Positions 4,358 to 19,753 of a stretch of DNA of 21,224 bases are shown here, one piece after another. The stretch covers positions 1 to 21,224 of the IMG/VR virus record IMGVR_UViG_3300046010_008287, one strand, 5' to 3'. This DNA is from a virus. Within the stretch, counting starts at the first letter, position 1. Every line of letters begins with the position of its first letter. The position numbers were made by a program, and so were the translations under genes. Below the pieces are notes generated by a model, which made no database searches, was not told the DNA's origin, and saw nothing but the letters and a program-made list of their open reading frames with translations.

Positions 4358-4389
4358 GAAAAAATGAGGGGAGGGTTAACTCCCCCCAT
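4358..4389 (-). terminator. Rho-independent terminator behind the major capsid gene
   Basis: On the minus strand ATGGGGGGAG pairs with CTCCCCTCAT (10 pairs, one G-T) around the loop TTAACC and is followed by TTTTTT. It lies 22 bases past the capsid stop codon and fits a role in setting the amount of capsid mRNA relative to the connector genes downstream. Confidence 0.85.
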
Positions 4390-4410: not shown

Positions 4411-5835
4411 TTAAGATGCAACACACTGAAGATCCAAGCTAGTATCGAAGCGACGAAGCAAAATACCAGCAGTCTTCAACATATGCACAGAAGCGCCATC
4501 AATATCACTTGCACGAGTGTCAGTTTCAGTAAATCCTTTTGGAACAACTGAACCTGCAACACACCAACGCAACAACTCACGACCTTTTTTGTTAACCATT
4601 TGCAAGTTGTTTTCACCATCATAAGTAGATTGGTCAACAAATACCATGCGATAAGATTCCAAAGGCAAACCAGAAACTGGGTGCTTTTTAGAAGCTTGAG
4701 CAACAGGACCGTGATCAAACAAAGGAGATTTAACTACGTTAACTCTATGACCATCAACATGCTCATAACTAGTGAAGTAACCAGTGATACCCAAGTTACG
4801 ACCAGAACCAGTAATAAAGGTAGGTTGAGTAGTTTGCAAATAAGAGTTAGAAGAGTAGTAAGTCTTCAAAGCGCGGTCAAACTCACGAGCTCCACCGATA
4901 CCAGTATAAAGAGTTACTTGCTTGTCAGTAGCATCAGTCATACCATAGAACAAATCACCAATAACTTCTTCAATTTTAGCTTGAGTCAAGTTAGAGTAAG
5001 TGTCTTTGTTAATGATTTGCTCCAACAAACCAGGACCAGAAACTACAGGTTGACCATTCTCATCCAACATAGTGCTAACACCATTTGCATCATGAGTTTT
5101 TTGACCATACCAATAGTACATTTCACACTCTTCTTTAAACTTCAACATGTGACGGTACTCTTCGTAATCCATCCACAATTTAGTCTTACTTCCTTCTTTC
5201 AAAGGCAATTCAAATTGAGCAACATAATCTTTAGCATTTCCAGAAAAATGGTAAGATTTACGTACAGTACCAATTTTGCTACGAACCAAACCAGGAGCAG
5301 TCCAGTTAGATGCATTACCACGAGAAAAGTCAATTCCTACGTTAGCATACATCATACCCCACAAAGCACCAGGAGAAGCATCAGCAACAGATACAGAAGC
5401 TGTATCAGGAGATACTAGACGCAAAGTGTACTTCCAACCTGAACCATCTGGTACTGGTTCACTCATAATACGAGCAAGAGTACCTGATTGAGATACCAAA
5501 GTGTAAGGAAAAATGAACCATTTATCAGGAAAAGTCAAGAAAAATGGAGCACCACCAGCACCTTGAACAGCAGCAGGAGCAGCAGAAACAACAGGACGAA
5601 CATTTATTTCGTGAGTTTTAACACGATATTCATATTCGTAGCGATCAATTGAACGAGTGTTTCCAACACCTTCAGTCAAGAAAGACAATGGAAATTTCTT
5701 TTCCTCACGACCAGCCAAGTGAGTAATGATAGGAGAGATCTCCTCTGGACGTTCCATAAGTGCGTTAACCAACGAGTTAGTGTCGGTCATTTGGGCATCG
5801 TTATAGTACGTTTTAAGAACTTGCATTAGAGCCAT
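4411..5835 (-). CDS. Major capsid protein
   Basis: A 474-residue protein whose length, composition and position fit the major capsid protein of a tailed phage with the HK97 fold. It follows portal and an acidic scaffold-like gene and is followed by a strong terminator. The N-terminus is helical and there are long beta-rich segments. The region around residues 230-250 (KFKEECEMYYWYGQ) followed by a flexible insert (ANGVSTMLDENGQP) resembles capsid proteins I associate with crAss-like and related Bacteroidota phages. It uses frequent, C-ending codons more than its neighbours, in line with high expression. No protease cleavage site or processing signal can be assigned. The start at 5835 (MALMQVLKTYYND) has an A/T-rich leader without Shine-Dalgarno pairing. 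Confidence 0.85.
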   Translation of the reverse strand: MALMQVLKTYYNDAQMTDTNSLVNALMERPEEISPIITHLAGREEKKFPLSFLTEGVGNTRSIDRYEYEYRVKTHEINVRPVVSAAPAAVQGAGGAPFFLTFPDKWFIFPYTLVSQSGTLARIMSEPVPDGSGWKYTLRLVSPDTASVSVADASPGALWGMMYANVGIDFSRGNASNWTAPGLVRSKIGTVRKSYHFSGNAKDYVAQFELPLKEGSKTKLWMDYEEYRHMLKFKEECEMYYWYGQKTHDANGVSTMLDENGQPVVSGPGLLEQIINKDTYSNLTQAKIEEVIGDLFYGMTDATDKQVTLYTGIGGAREFDRALKTYYSSNSYLQTTQPTFITGSGRNLGITGYFTSYEHVDGHRVNVVKSPLFDHGPVAQASKKHPVSGLPLESYRMVFVDQSTYDGENNLQMVNKKGRELLRWCVAGSVVPKGFTETDTRASDIDGASVHMLKTAGILLRRFDTSLDLQCVAS

Positions 5836-7040: not shown

Positions 7041-8957
7041 TTATTTTTTATAATTTGCTTTATTATATAACACTTTCATTTTAGAACTGTTACAAGTATA
7101 GCATTTTTTACCTCCAGTTTTATAAGCTCTAATTAATGTATGTGTAACAGGATCTAAAATATAGTTATTTTCAATATCGTAAGGTTTACCACCTAGTAAT
7201 TTAATTGGATCTATATTTCTTAAAATGTTAATTACATTTTTATCTTCCATTTTTTGCATATTAGCATTTGGAACATTTCTGATTACTCCTCTTTTTGCCC
7301 AAGGATTAAAATCCCATCTATCATGCGCTCTTAAATGTATGTTTCCATCTGCATCTATTTTTTTATGATATAAAAATCCTCCTCTTACTCCAAATTCATC
7401 TGCAGCACTTAATACATCTGTAAACCCTTCATCTTTTAAATAACCTGAAGCAGCTCCCCCTCTTCTTGCGTCATCAACATCAAATTTTTGTGCAAATCTA
7501 AATTCTTCAGGATTTTCATCCATCATTTTTTCTATATCTTTAAAAGTTTTATTTTTAAATTCAGGATTACCTGATAATTTTTCAGAAATAGCTTTTAAAG
7601 ATTTATCATACGCATCTTTAGAAATTATACCTTTTTTAAATTCTCTTGTTAATTTATTTGCTTCAATATTAGATACTAAATGACTTAATTTTCTATCACT
7701 CATATCATATCTAGCTGCATTTAATACATATTTATCATCACCAATTTTTGAAAATGTATTAAATAATTGAGGTTTATTCCAAGTAGTTCTCCAAGCATCT
7801 AATCTTGCTTCAGTAGGTATAGAAATTCCAGAAGGACTTTCTTTTGGATTAAATAGTGTTCTAACTTGTTTTTTAAATAACTCTTGTTTATATGGTTCTC
7901 CTTTTTTTATAGCATCTACTACACTTAATCTATCGTCTATCATAGCTTCCATAGTTTTAAGTTTTACATTAGTAGCATTTCCTTTTAATCCATGATACCC
8001 ATATTTAACTAAATTAATAGGAAACTGTGCTAATTTTTCTTTTACTCCATACCCTATTGGTTCAATTCCCCAATATAAACTTTCTGCTAATGCTTTTTTA
8101 CCAAGTTGTTTTCCTAATTTAACTGATGGTAAAACTCCTAAAGTGTGTAAACCTAATTCAGCGGCTCCTCCTAAAGTAGTATATGTTTCTTTTTCTGTTA
8201 AATCTTTTCCAACTCTTGCAACATCCATTACAGCAGAAACAGGATTAAATGCTCCTATTACATCGCTCATAGGAGATGATGTAGGATAGTTACCACTTAA
8301 GTTACCTTGTGGTACATAACCTCTTTGCATTAAAGATCCTACTGCATCAAGAGGTTGATCCATTGCATAAATAAACTGATTTTTTAATCTTTCTGTTCCT
8401 TCAGTTGCTGGTTTTATTTCTCCTTGATCTAATAAATCTTCTTTTATTTTTGCTAATTTATCTTCTTCAGCAATTTTCTTTTTAGTAGTAGCTGTCTGAA
8501 CTTTTTGTTTAGGAGTTACTCCCTTAACATCATCTTTTTTAGCTTCTTCTATTCTAGGATTAAATGTATAAGTATTATCTTGAGTAGCAAAGTTAGGTTT
8601 AAGTCCTTCCATTAATAAATCTTCATCGTAAAGATTACGTGTTTGTTTTTTAGGAGGATCTTTAGGGCCTCCATCTTTCATTAACTGTGGAGCAGTCTCA
8701 TTAAAAGACATTACCAAAGGTTTAGCTTCGGATTGTGCAGGCTGAGGTACTTTATAGTTAGGAGTAGTAGCAGGAGGAGTAGGAAAACTAATAGGTTCTG
8801 GTTGTTGAATGGGTTGTTGTTGCTGCTGTTGAGACTGAGCTTGCAATTGCTGTTCATATTGATCAAGTACTTGAGGATTTTGTAAAGCCTCTATTGTATT
8901 AGGATAACCTAATTGCTTTACTCGTTCTAATATCTGTCTTCTAGTAGCATTATCCAT
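7041..8957 (-). CDS. Large virion-type protein with Gln/Pro-rich N-terminus, function unknown
   Basis: A 638-residue protein between the Dps-like gene and the scaffold-like gene. Residues about 35-75 are a Gln/Pro-rich linker, after a short N-terminal helix that could be a docking segment. A less polar stretch (about 260-320) contains Gly/Ala/Leu-rich segments that could insert into or pass a membrane. The C-terminal 100 residues contain RWDFNPW, LLGGKPYDI and end with a Thr-Gly-Gly-Lys-Lys-Cys-x-x-Cys motif and a basic tail. Similar WDFNP and GGKPY patterns are known to me from large, uncharacterised proteins of Bacteroidota phages. An internal or ejected virion protein is possible. Start and stop are coupled to the Dps-like gene by TAATG. 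Confidence 0.7.
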   Translation of the reverse strand: MDNATRRQILERVKQLGYPNTIEALQNPQVLDQYEQQLQAQSQQQQQQPIQQPEPISFPTPPATTPNYKVPQPAQSEAKPLVMSFNETAPQLMKDGGPKDPPKKQTRNLYDEDLLMEGLKPNFATQDNTYTFNPRIEEAKKDDVKGVTPKQKVQTATTKKKIAEEDKLAKIKEDLLDQGEIKPATEGTERLKNQFIYAMDQPLDAVGSLMQRGYVPQGNLSGNYPTSSPMSDVIGAFNPVSAVMDVARVGKDLTEKETYTTLGGAAELGLHTLGVLPSVKLGKQLGKKALAESLYWGIEPIGYGVKEKLAQFPINLVKYGYHGLKGNATNVKLKTMEAMIDDRLSVVDAIKKGEPYKQELFKKQVRTLFNPKESPSGISIPTEARLDAWRTTWNKPQLFNTFSKIGDDKYVLNAARYDMSDRKLSHLVSNIEANKLTREFKKGIISKDAYDKSLKAISEKLSGNPEFKNKTFKDIEKMMDENPEEFRFAQKFDVDDARRGGAASGYLKDEGFTDVLSAADEFGVRGGFLYHKKIDADGNIHLRAHDRWDFNPWAKRGVIRNVPNANMQKMEDKNVINILRNIDPIKLLGGKPYDIENNYILDPVTHTLIRAYKTGGKKCYTCNSSKMKVLYNKANYKK

Positions 8958-9442
8958 TACTTCAAGAAAGTAAGTTTGTACTTAGCTTTATTAATATCTG
9001 CTTTAATCTCATCTAGTAAGTTATTGAATTCAGAAAATTTACTTTCTTTTTGTAAATCATTAACTTTATTTTTAAGTGTATCTAAAGCAGTCATACAATT
9101 AGTTACATCTTTAAATTTAGGACTAACATTAAAATCCATAAATGTCAACAATGTTTCTGCAATACCTTGGTAATTTTCTACAACTTCATCTGCTCTATTT
9201 CTAAGACTGTCATATAAGTCACCAAGAGTTTGATGAGCAGCATAAGAACCTTGACCAGTCATTCCCCAATGAAGAAGATGGATTTTATTAGCAACTTCTA
9301 ACATGCTTAATGCTAACTCTGCTACCAAGTTATCTAATCTACCTGACCCACGGAAACCTGCTTCTAAGTCTTTAATTACTTCGGTTCCATTCTTTTCTAA
9401 ACTATCTAAAGGAGTTAGATATTTTGATAGATCTTTTGCCAT
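8957..9442 (-). CDS. Dps-like ferritin family protein
   Basis: A 161-residue protein with the signature of Dps (DNA protection during starvation) ferritins. His58 in LLHWGMTGQG, His70 in YAAH, and Asp85 and Glu89 in ADEVVEN have the spacing of the Dps intersubunit ferroxidase site (H, +12 H, +15 D, +4 E). Dps proteins form 12-subunit cages that oxidise Fe(II) with peroxide and protect DNA. The protein is helical throughout and close to the family's usual length of about 160-190 residues. It sits in the head module, joined by TAATG overlaps to the portal gene before it and the large virion-type gene after it. It could protect host or packaged DNA during infection or serve as a structural or cargo protein. 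Membership in the family is well supported; the role is inferred. Confidence 0.85.
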   Translation of the reverse strand: MAKDLSKYLTPLDSLEKNGTEVIKDLEAGFRGSGRLDNLVAELALSMLEVANKIHLLHWGMTGQGSYAAHQTLGDLYDSLRNRADEVVENYQGIAETLLTFMDFNVSPKFKDVTNCMTALDTLKNKVNDLQKESKFSEFNNLLDEIKADINKAKYKLTFLK

Positions 9443-13664: not shown

Positions 13665-14161
13665 TCGCTATACTTATTTGTTACAACTCCTCCACGATTT
13701 GGATTATCTTTCTCTGCTTGCTTTTTAACTAACTCTTCTAGTTTATCTAATCCTTCAACTACATCCCCCATTTTAGATAAATTAGCAACCAAGTCTTTTG
13801 CCTGGTAGATTAGTCGTCCATTCTCATCCATATCTGTTAGGTCAATAGTCTCAAAATACTTTTGAAGTTTAGTAACTGATATACGTGCAGCTTTAAGTAG
13901 TTTGATAGCATGCGTTTCAGATAGTAACATATACTTACTAACTGCTGCTTTAATCTTTGGGTTGACACATGTCATTTTTAAGTCAGCCAAAAGAATATCC
14001 TGCCTTTCATCTATTTCATAGGCTGCATAACTAGATCTATGGTCAACAAAAAAGTAAACAAATGCTAGTTCATTTACAGATAAACTTTTAAACTCTGGGA
14101 TAGTTAACGCATATGGAGATGGTTCAACTTTTCCTTCTGCTAGTGTTAGTAGATCTTTCAT
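13661..14161 (-). CDS. Putative terminase small subunit
   Basis: A 166-residue, mostly helical protein that ends in the ATGA overlap with the start of terL. The segment LSVNELAFVYFFVDHRSSYAAY, followed by a region of short helices (VNPKIKAAVSKYMLLSETHAIKLLKAARISV) and an acidic/lysine-rich coiled end, resembles proteins encoded just before terL in Bacteroidota phages. Small terminase subunits recognise the packaging site and regulate TerL; they are poorly conserved. There is no clear DNA-binding helix-turn-helix, so the call rests on position, size and coupling. It also overlaps the HU-like gene upstream by ATGA. Confidence 0.6.
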   Translation of the reverse strand: MKDLLTLAEGKVEPSPYALTIPEFKSLSVNELAFVYFFVDHRSSYAAYEIDERQDILLADLKMTCVNPKIKAAVSKYMLLSETHAIKLLKAARISVTKLQKYFETIDLTDMDENGRLIYQAKDLVANLSKMGDVVEGLDKLEELVKKQAEKDNPNRGGVVTNKYSE

Positions 14162-14397
14162 TTAGTTTCTTTATTTTTGTTTTCTAGTTTGCGCCTAGTT
14201 TTCTCATTCATGTGAGCTATGCGCTCTTTTTTTGCATGAAATTTTCCAAAATATGGAAGCTTAATTGTCTGAAAACCAGGCTGTTTAATAATTTCCGCTA
14301 CAAACTTAAATTGAGAAAAGATAACTTCTTCAATAGTGTGTATTGGAAGATTATGCTTTGTTGCCAGTTGGATTATCAGTTTCTTTTCCTTTTTCAT
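14158..14397 (-). CDS. Short HU/IHF-like DNA-binding protein
   Basis: A 79-residue protein with the N-terminal helical dimer part and the beta-sheet core of the HU/IHF family: an amphipathic helix pair (residues 5-42), then FQTIKLPYFGKFHAKKERI (42-60), in which LPYFGKF matches the family's typical G-x-F strand. HU/IHF proteins bend and compact DNA as dimers. The usual beta-arm with its conserved proline (RNPxTG) is absent; instead the protein ends in a charged Lys/Arg/Glu helix. So it may bind DNA without intercalation or through the basic tail. It overlaps the zinc-ribbon gene upstream by 47 bases and the terminase small-subunit gene by ATGA. HU/IHF-like genes near packaging genes are recurrent in Bacteroidota phages. 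Confidence 0.7.
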   Translation of the reverse strand: MKKEKKLIIQLATKHNLPIHTIEEVIFSQFKFVAEIIKQPGFQTIKLPYFGKFHAKKERIAHMNEKTRRKLENKNKETK

Positions 14398-19186: not shown

Positions 19187-19285
19187 CTATTTATTCTTAA
19201 ACTTATCAGTATAATACTGATTAATTTTTATGATAACAGTAATTGTTGCTGCTATTGATGCTACAAACATTAATATAATATCCAT
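19187..19285 (-). CDS. Very small membrane protein (32 residues)
   Basis: An ATG at 19285 opens a frame for MDIILMFVASIAATITVI followed by KINQYYTDKFKNK and a TAG stop. It has one membrane helix and a basic cytoplasmic-type tail, like many phage micro-proteins. It precedes the 77-residue gene by 12 bases. Single-helix miniproteins this short also arise by chance, so confidence is moderate. Confidence 0.45.
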   Translation of the reverse strand: MDIILMFVASIAATITVIIKINQYYTDKFKNK

Positions 19286-19319: not shown

Positions 19320-19600
19320 TAAAAAGATACAATTATCCCCTTAGCGATTTTTTGTTGATTAAAGAGTTTTAAGTCACTGCCGTCTTTAGCCTTCGGTGGA
19401 ACATTTCTTTCAGCCTATAGTTATAACCCACCCCAGGACTTTTATCTCTTTAACATTTTCACGAACTATTGGGGACAACTCCTAATGCTTATGTCGTAAT
19501 GGATTGGTTACCTGTTCGTTAGCATTATTAGAACCCAACTTCTGACCTCTTACTTACCTTTTGGCCCTCAGAGGTGATCGTCAGTGATGACGGTTCGTGA
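19320..19600 (-). ncRNA. Candidate structured non-coding RNA, two domains, about 280 nt
   Basis: This gene-free stretch is higher in G and C than its flanks and folds on the minus strand into two closed domains. Domain 1: TCACGAAC (19593-19600) pairs with GTTCGTGA (19459-19466). Inside it are CGTCA/TGACG (19579-19592, loop TCAC, directly next to the closing helix), ACCTCT/AGAGGT (19570-19575 with 19545-19550), TTGGG/CCCAA (19534-19538 with 19469-19473) and TAATGCT/AGCATTA (19521-19527 with 19483-19489). Domain 2: TTAAAGAG (19446-19453) pairs with CTCTTTAA (19359-19366), with AAGTC/GACTT and GGTGG/CCACC within. A TATATTTG element (19603-19610) ends right before the first helix, and T-rich sequence follows at about 19320. 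No known RNA class was recognised; tRNA, tmRNA and RNase P signatures are not evident. Confidence 0.6.
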
Positions 19601-19602
19601 GA

Positions 19603-19610
19603 CAAATATA
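19603..19610 (-). promoter_or_regulatory. Candidate -7 promoter element of the structured RNA
   Basis: TATATTTG on the minus strand, an exact TAnnTTTG. The predicted start would be within a few bases of 19596-19600, where the first long helix begins. No clear TTG at 17-23 bases upstream. It lies between the stop codon of the 45-residue gene and the RNA. Confidence 0.4.
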
Positions 19611-19615
19611 CAACA

Positions 19616-19753
19616 TTAACCTTGACCCCTACTAATTTTTTTGTAATTTTTTGAAGTTTTGATTGATGAGTATTTAGTTTTAGCGTGAACTCCTGGACGC
19701 TTTCTTTTAGGTTTAGCAACGAATGACGTGCTAGATTGTTTTACTTTAGCCAT
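19616..19753 (-). CDS. Small basic protein (45 residues), conserved-type
   Basis: An ATG at 19753 opens MAKVKQSSTSFVAKPKRKRPG followed by VHAKTKYSSIKTSKNYKKISRGQG and TAA. The very basic sequence with KPKRKRPGVHAKTK, SKNYKK and RGQG at the end resembles small basic proteins I know from many Bacteroidota phages; their function is unknown, and a nucleic acid-binding role is a natural guess. A competing frame of 63 codons overlaps it and the structured RNA, but has no such features. It has a promoter element 20 bases upstream and is the first gene of the leftward block. Confidence 0.7.
   Translation of the reverse strand: MAKVKQSSTSFVAKPKRKRPGVHAKTKYSSIKTSKNYKKISRGQG

Follow-up and report, generated by a model that had tools for sequence, protein, structure and literature searches.

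On the evidence of its own sequence and that of its relatives, the minus strand of this viral DNA encodes a structured RNA, read from position 19600 to 19326, that is a new family outside the catalogued RNA families. In the phages that carry it, the RNA opens the late operon or stands very close to its beginning. The window (the whole stretch that was analysed, a 21,224-base fragment of a virus record) has its late genes on the minus strand, including those for the terminase (phrog_6681), portal (phrog_6547) and major capsid protein (phrog_11589), and its terminase shares about 42% identity with those of crAss phages such as cr115_1. The crAss-like phages count among the most abundant known viruses, and late-gene switching in these and related phages is poorly understood. 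One RNA that heads the late genes in phages with different terminases provides a concrete handle on that switch.

Architecture of the RNA

The RNA is about 270 bases long in the window phage, and all of its features lie on the minus strand. The promoter element TATATTTG (19603..19610), of the Bacteroidota −7 type, is located two bases ahead of the first helix, P1, where the initial annotation had placed a TAnnTTTG element. Domain 1 (19459..19600) forms a four-way junction, in which P1 encloses P2, P3 and P4. P1 (8 bp, UCACGAAC/GUUCGUGA, 19600-19593 with 19466-19459) closes the domain, and the P2 hairpin (19579..19592) is stacked directly on it. These are followed by an invariant AUC, P3 (ACCUCU/AGAGGU with a variable apical part, 19545..19575), CAGAMGU, P4 (GUUGGG with CCCAAU, plus a variable upper helix, 19468..19539) and AYA, leading back to P1. 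The near-invariant core of the domain is GGGUCAGAMGUYGGGUU...UCCCCRAYA, and conservation peaks in the stretch AGGUCAGAAGUUGGGUU (19532..19548), from which a search pattern was taken. A five-base spacer, AAAAU, separates Domain 1 from Domain 2 (19359..19453), in which P5 (8 bp, UUAAAGAG/CUCUUUAA, 19453-19446 with 19366-19359) closes around P6 and a GGGUGG/CCACC hairpin.

Both closing helices had been proposed at these coordinates, five bases apart, and the two-domain description stands. The extent has to be revised, since the RNA does not stop at the second domain but includes a further conserved hairpin at its 3' end, P8 (GGGGAUA-AUUG-UAUCUUUU, 19340-19322), which is followed in the window by a T run. 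The general form of P8 at the end of the RNA is GGGGAUA-NNNN-UAUCC, and AGGGG is invariant in the alignment of about 20 relatives found by blastn. In four members (L111, L139, L168 and L169), the tip of Domain 2 carries about 100 inserted bases with conserved motifs of their own (GAUGAGAUUGAGAAUGUC).

Folding and covariation

Folding of the single sequence beats chance only modestly (z = −1.96; 6 of 200 shuffles were equally good), and the promoter word TAnnTTTG is neither rarer nor commoner in the window than expected (38 found, 31.8 expected by chance); the case for the RNA therefore rests on its relatives. Contigs with a related terminase yielded about 20 of these by blastn against the RNA region. 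Their alignment consists of long invariant stretches with variable helices between them, and RNAalifold detected compensatory change in 14 of 38 pairs. An exact-match scan of IMG/VR with the 17-base core RGGTCAGAMGTYGGGTT returned at least 119 stretches, nearly all of which were recognised by profile as relatives, including very diverged ones; because the scan depends on an exact core, diverged members are under-sampled.

The helices are retained in spite of sequence change. Among 106 unique sequences, at least five contiguous P1 pairs are formed in 97%, compared to 31% when the 3' strands are exchanged among them (at most 41% in any of 200 swaps). When 26 diverse members are aligned with anchors set by hand, 94.0% of the helix cells pair, against 70.6% after shuffling, with covariation of 0.645 against 0.175. 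For P1–P4 in 93 distinct phage sequences, fitted to the structure with cmsearch and a home-made model, R1 (whose E-values are rough), the corresponding values are 96.2% against 73.5% and 0.601 against 0.183, with no value as high in 500 shuffles, and there are 521 double-changed cells against 164. Sliding the partners by one base in this alignment reduces pairing to 42–46%. In alignment A3, the 5' ends are kept in register by a constant 16-base tag that contains no pairs; the P1 5' strands (but not the P2 strands) were chosen there by complementarity, and for this reason the swap test and the wider cmsearch alignment are given as well.

Compensatory changes on both sides are found in six of six P1 pairs and five of five P2 pairs. 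Among the 93 phage sequences, the outer pairs of P3 are nearly invariant and its inner pairs covary, and 99.6% of P4 cells are paired. When mutual information is calculated without reference to structure on the same model-fitted alignment, the pairs of P1 and P2 rank first, and the upper P4 helix is also recovered. Across Domains 1 and 2, 15 relatives have double changes in 18 of 32 pairs, including both-side changes in all six pairs of P5, a helix that is present natively in 87% and in 32% when its strands are swapped. Compensatory changes thus occur in independent helices (P1, P2 and P5), as would be expected of a new family, and this covariation is decisive for the existence of the RNA. Covariation among homologues was one of the checks named in the initial annotation, and its outcome supports that annotation. 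The case for the RNA is now stronger than what was first put forward.

Known RNA classes

None of the 4227 models in Rfam 15 matches the window at gathering score, nor does any match over the RNA in 21 related loci, in keeping with the earlier judgement, for which a cmscan search had been proposed as the check, that the class was unassigned. At E≤10, the only hit in the region was a spurious one to mir-155, on the opposite strand and with 17 bits against a threshold of 56. ARAGORN found no tRNA or tmRNA in the window, the Rfam model of phi29 pRNA had no match there, and blastn of the RNA against INPHARED phages gave chance-level matches only. No description of the RNA was found in the open-licence PMC literature. 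A 63-aa frame with a TTG start (19528-19719) overlaps the RNA, but is not credible as a coding sequence, since in this region the relatives show indels of varied length as well as compensatory changes.

Genomic setting and distribution

Relatives of the RNA were found in about 100 phage contigs and a few Bacteroidales genomes, a count that is a lower bound for the family. Each phage record has one copy. The carriers fall into at least two lineages that differ in their terminase: the crAss-like phages (phrog_6681) and a group with genomes of about 50 kb that encodes a phrog_38 TerL, a phrog_156 portal and a terminase small subunit (phrog_51/PF03592).

The RNA is found at the divergent boundary between early and late genes, on the late strand. 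Averaged over 98 phage loci, 97% of the coding DNA downstream and 12% of that upstream is on the strand of the RNA, and downstream same-strand coding reaches at least 90% in 80 of 86 loci. TerL is located downstream on the same strand, 1.3–6.3 kb away, in all 50 loci with a recognisable terminase (28/28 of phrog_38 type and 22/22 of crAss type). The position in front of the late genes, asserted in the initial annotation, is thus borne out, with upstream genes mostly on the other strand.

How general is the association? In a sample anchored on the terminase, and so independent of the RNA, the RNA was present in 18 of 20 loci of crAss type for which 7.5 kb or more of upstream DNA was available, and in 26 of 30 of phrog_38 type, for which the minimum was 4.7 kb. 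It was on the late strand in 43 of 43. Two of the four phrog_38-type loci without it (L087 and L154) have it just past the sampled flank. Where upstream DNA suffices, the RNA is therefore near-universal (18/20 and 26–28/30). R1 found no match in the gut crAss phages cr115_1, cr10_1, cr273_1 and ProJPt-Bp1 or in the first 50 kb of phi14:2, so the family is either missing or too diverged in some crAss-like phages.

The 45-aa basic protein encoded just upstream of the RNA in the window (19616..19753, minus strand) had been singled out as a neighbour, and it is indeed a common one in the crAss clade: its family (..RPGxHxKxK..SKxYxK..GQG) occurs at 35 loci, directly upstream of the RNA in most. It has no PHROG or Pfam match. 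It is absent from the phrog_38 group loci examined, which leaves its role as an obligate, N-like partner unsupported.

Promoters and downstream genes

An exact TAnnTTTG stands just before the RNA in 34 of 93 phage loci, compared to an expected 3.4%, and many of the others have TATATT at the same position. These elements fit Bacteroidota hosts, the host being deduced here from the promoter element.

The two ARRANGEMENTS, the phrog_38 group and the crAss-like phages, differ downstream of the RNA. In the phrog_38 group, the start of P8 lies about 20–36 bases ahead of the first start codon, which leaves no room for a terminator or a new promoter, and the RNA and ORF1 must consequently be on one transcript; TAnnTTTG after the RNA is at chance level (2 loci, 2.2 expected). 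In the crAss clade, the first ORF is about 55 or more bases away, and 15 of 39 loci, against 2.8 expected, have a TAnnTTTG no more than 100 bases past P8, so that late genes in these phages may also start without the leader. Because the layouts differ, a leader and a free RNA are both possible, perhaps depending on the lineage. The first ORF itself, which in the window (19187..19285, minus strand) starts with ATG and encodes a 32-aa, probably transmembrane peptide (MDIILMFVASIAATITVIIKINQYYTDKFKNK), differs from lineage to lineage, which argues against control of a single gene.

Chromosomal copies in rumen Bacteroidales

Scanning GTDB genomes with the core gave matches in few bacteria. Two rumen Bacteroidales MAGs contain 12 (L263–L274) and 17 (L248–L262) dispersed copies of Domain 1, a feature unique within the sampled family; only 1 of 61 sampled members of the family and 2 of 395 of the class have any copy. 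The Bacteroidales copies are intergenic, mostly face a convergent gene and are often followed by a GC-rich palindrome. They have kept Domain 1 and lack most of Domain 2. Pairing among these paralogues is 94.3% against 84.4%, with compensatory changes, including a switch in P4 from GGG/CCC to GGA/UCC in eight copies. As pairing has survived by compensatory change, the copies look functional rather than decaying.

Such multi-copy relatives might serve in defence, as RNA decoys. The full scenario, in which a widespread phage RNA takes over a conserved host machine for its late genes and some rumen bacteria have multiplied the core domain as decoys, is unlikely to hold in its entirety.

Possible functions

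How might the RNA act? What the comparisons establish is a conserved, covarying RNA, present in single copy on the late strand at the point of divergence in at least two terminase lineages, in one of which it is contiguous with the first late ORF. Tentatively, we favour the reading that it is the leader of the late (packaging and virion) operon, lying next to the promoter and working through a bound RNA polymerase or ribosome in a put-like manner. The put RNA of phage HK022 is a leader located just after the promoter that binds the RNA polymerase elongation complex, with an effect reaching at least 10 kb (PMC9378689). Like put, the present RNA is a phage RNA with compact stem-loop structure that lies close downstream of a promoter and forms the first part of a long operon (PMC9378689). 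However, put has about 70 nt and two stem-loops and belongs to an early operon in Proteobacteria, whereas this RNA, at about 270 nt, is about four times as long, is made up of a four-way junction and a P5/P6 domain, heads a late operon in Bacteroidota-type phages, and has no sequence or Rfam relation to put. GOLLD and ROOL are also large, covarying, phage-encoded RNAs of unknown function (PMC12286853), but they are larger and often near tRNA islands, unlike this RNA at the start of the late operon, which has no Rfam match. The pRNA of phi29 is likewise a phage RNA found in packaging-gene neighbourhoods. Put binds the β' zinc-binding domain of RNA polymerase and suppresses termination, and pRNA is present in proheads and needed for packaging.

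As a leader, the RNA might act as follows. Transcription would start within a few bases of P1. While the leader is being made, Domain 1 would fold compactly as a four-way junction and bind a conserved machine of the cell; the elongation complex of the host RNA polymerase is the likeliest candidate, the ribosome an alternative. The bound machine would then promote expression of the long late operon, as with phage put RNAs, and Domain 2 and P8 may time or release this action and present the first ribosome-binding site. The chromosomal Domain 1 copies would bind the same target, either as decoys or as domesticated regulators. A conserved partner is implied by the conservation of the family and by its near-invariant four-way-junction core, and a machine-binding role in late expression is favoured. 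What the phages share is the start of late transcription, not one gene or motor. Counting against the leader, the Bacteroidales copies stand outside an operon-leader position. Moreover, none of six intrinsic terminators predicted in L234, and just one in L239, is on the late strand, so an antiterminator would have few evident targets.

Alternatively, the RNA (about 270 nt) could act in trans as a free molecule that the phage transcribes from a dedicated promoter late in infection. It would bind and redirect a host or phage factor, for instance RNA polymerase, the ribosome or a regulator, and its location in the late operon would set only the timing. This is possible rather than probable, yet comes close to the leader in likelihood because of the second promoter that often follows the RNA in crAss-like phages and the bacterial copies, most of which are not upstream of a gene and nevertheless covary, suggesting that Domain 1 works away from any operon. 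The promoter directly ahead of P1 and the T run after P8 in the window also agree with a free RNA. Its fusion to the first late mRNA in the phrog_38 group does not, nor does a position at the late-operon start that is conserved across lineages though gene neighbours differ. Control of the first late ORF by a riboswitch-like or translational element is improbable: P8 is at the ribosome-binding site in the phrog_38 group, and its loop has an SD-like AGGAG in L082 and L124, but the first ORFs differ among lineages, the crAss clade has the wider spacing described above, and the host copies have no such ORF.

More improbable still is a role in DNA packaging like that of phi29 pRNA, which would explain why the RNA is found beside the terminase and portal genes. 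The RNA is conserved as an RNA, present once per phage and always a few kb from TerL, with two terminase families, all of which might be expected of a packaging component. The phrog_38 group, however, has a gene for a terminase small subunit, a protein that phages with a pRNA can do without, and the TerL and portal proteins of the two lineages match different PHROGs, so that one RNA would have to fit different motors. These two points make the packaging reading less likely; in addition, there is no match to the pRNA family, and chromosomal copies in bacteria would be senseless as packaging parts. Mimicry of ribosomal RNA, finally, is hardly credible. The AUCACC and GUYGGGUU motifs recall 16S motifs, the stretch GUCGGGUUAAGUCCC occurs in Bacteroidota 16S, and the mean local score of Domain 1 against 16S is 19.7, compared to 18.8 ± 0.3 for shuffles. 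The best native score (26), however, is below the shuffled maximum (27), the motifs stand in the opposite order in 16S, and the examined host 16S ends in GGAAUACCUCC, not GGAUCACCUCC; against Bacteroidota 16S and 23S alike, the shuffled maximum was not exceeded.

Additional observations

Directly 3' of the major capsid gene in the window, there is a strong terminator-like hairpin with a T run (4368-4387, minus strand), beyond which the late genes continue. The late operon of the window also encodes Dps-like (phrog_858; 8957-9442), HU-like (PF00216, below cut-off; 14158-14397) and Cpn10/GroES-like (PF00166; 15377-15685) proteins, all on the minus strand. In Cellulophaga phage phi4:1 (NC_021788.1), an unannotated intergenic stretch after a tRNA cluster (about 91,620–92,040; L200 3790-4210) has TACGTTTG ahead of it, repeated complementary blocks and a weak blastn match to L143. 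It matches neither R1 nor Rfam and was rejected as a member of the family; the stretch, also present in phi17:2, is possibly another structured RNA. One contig, L123, carries a GOLLD RNA (170 bits, 5084-5513, minus strand) at a separate place from the present RNA. In L237 (record G010), the crAss-like terminase match (TerL contig 76311-78290) contains six in-frame TGA codons, which suggests that TGA is read as sense in this phage.
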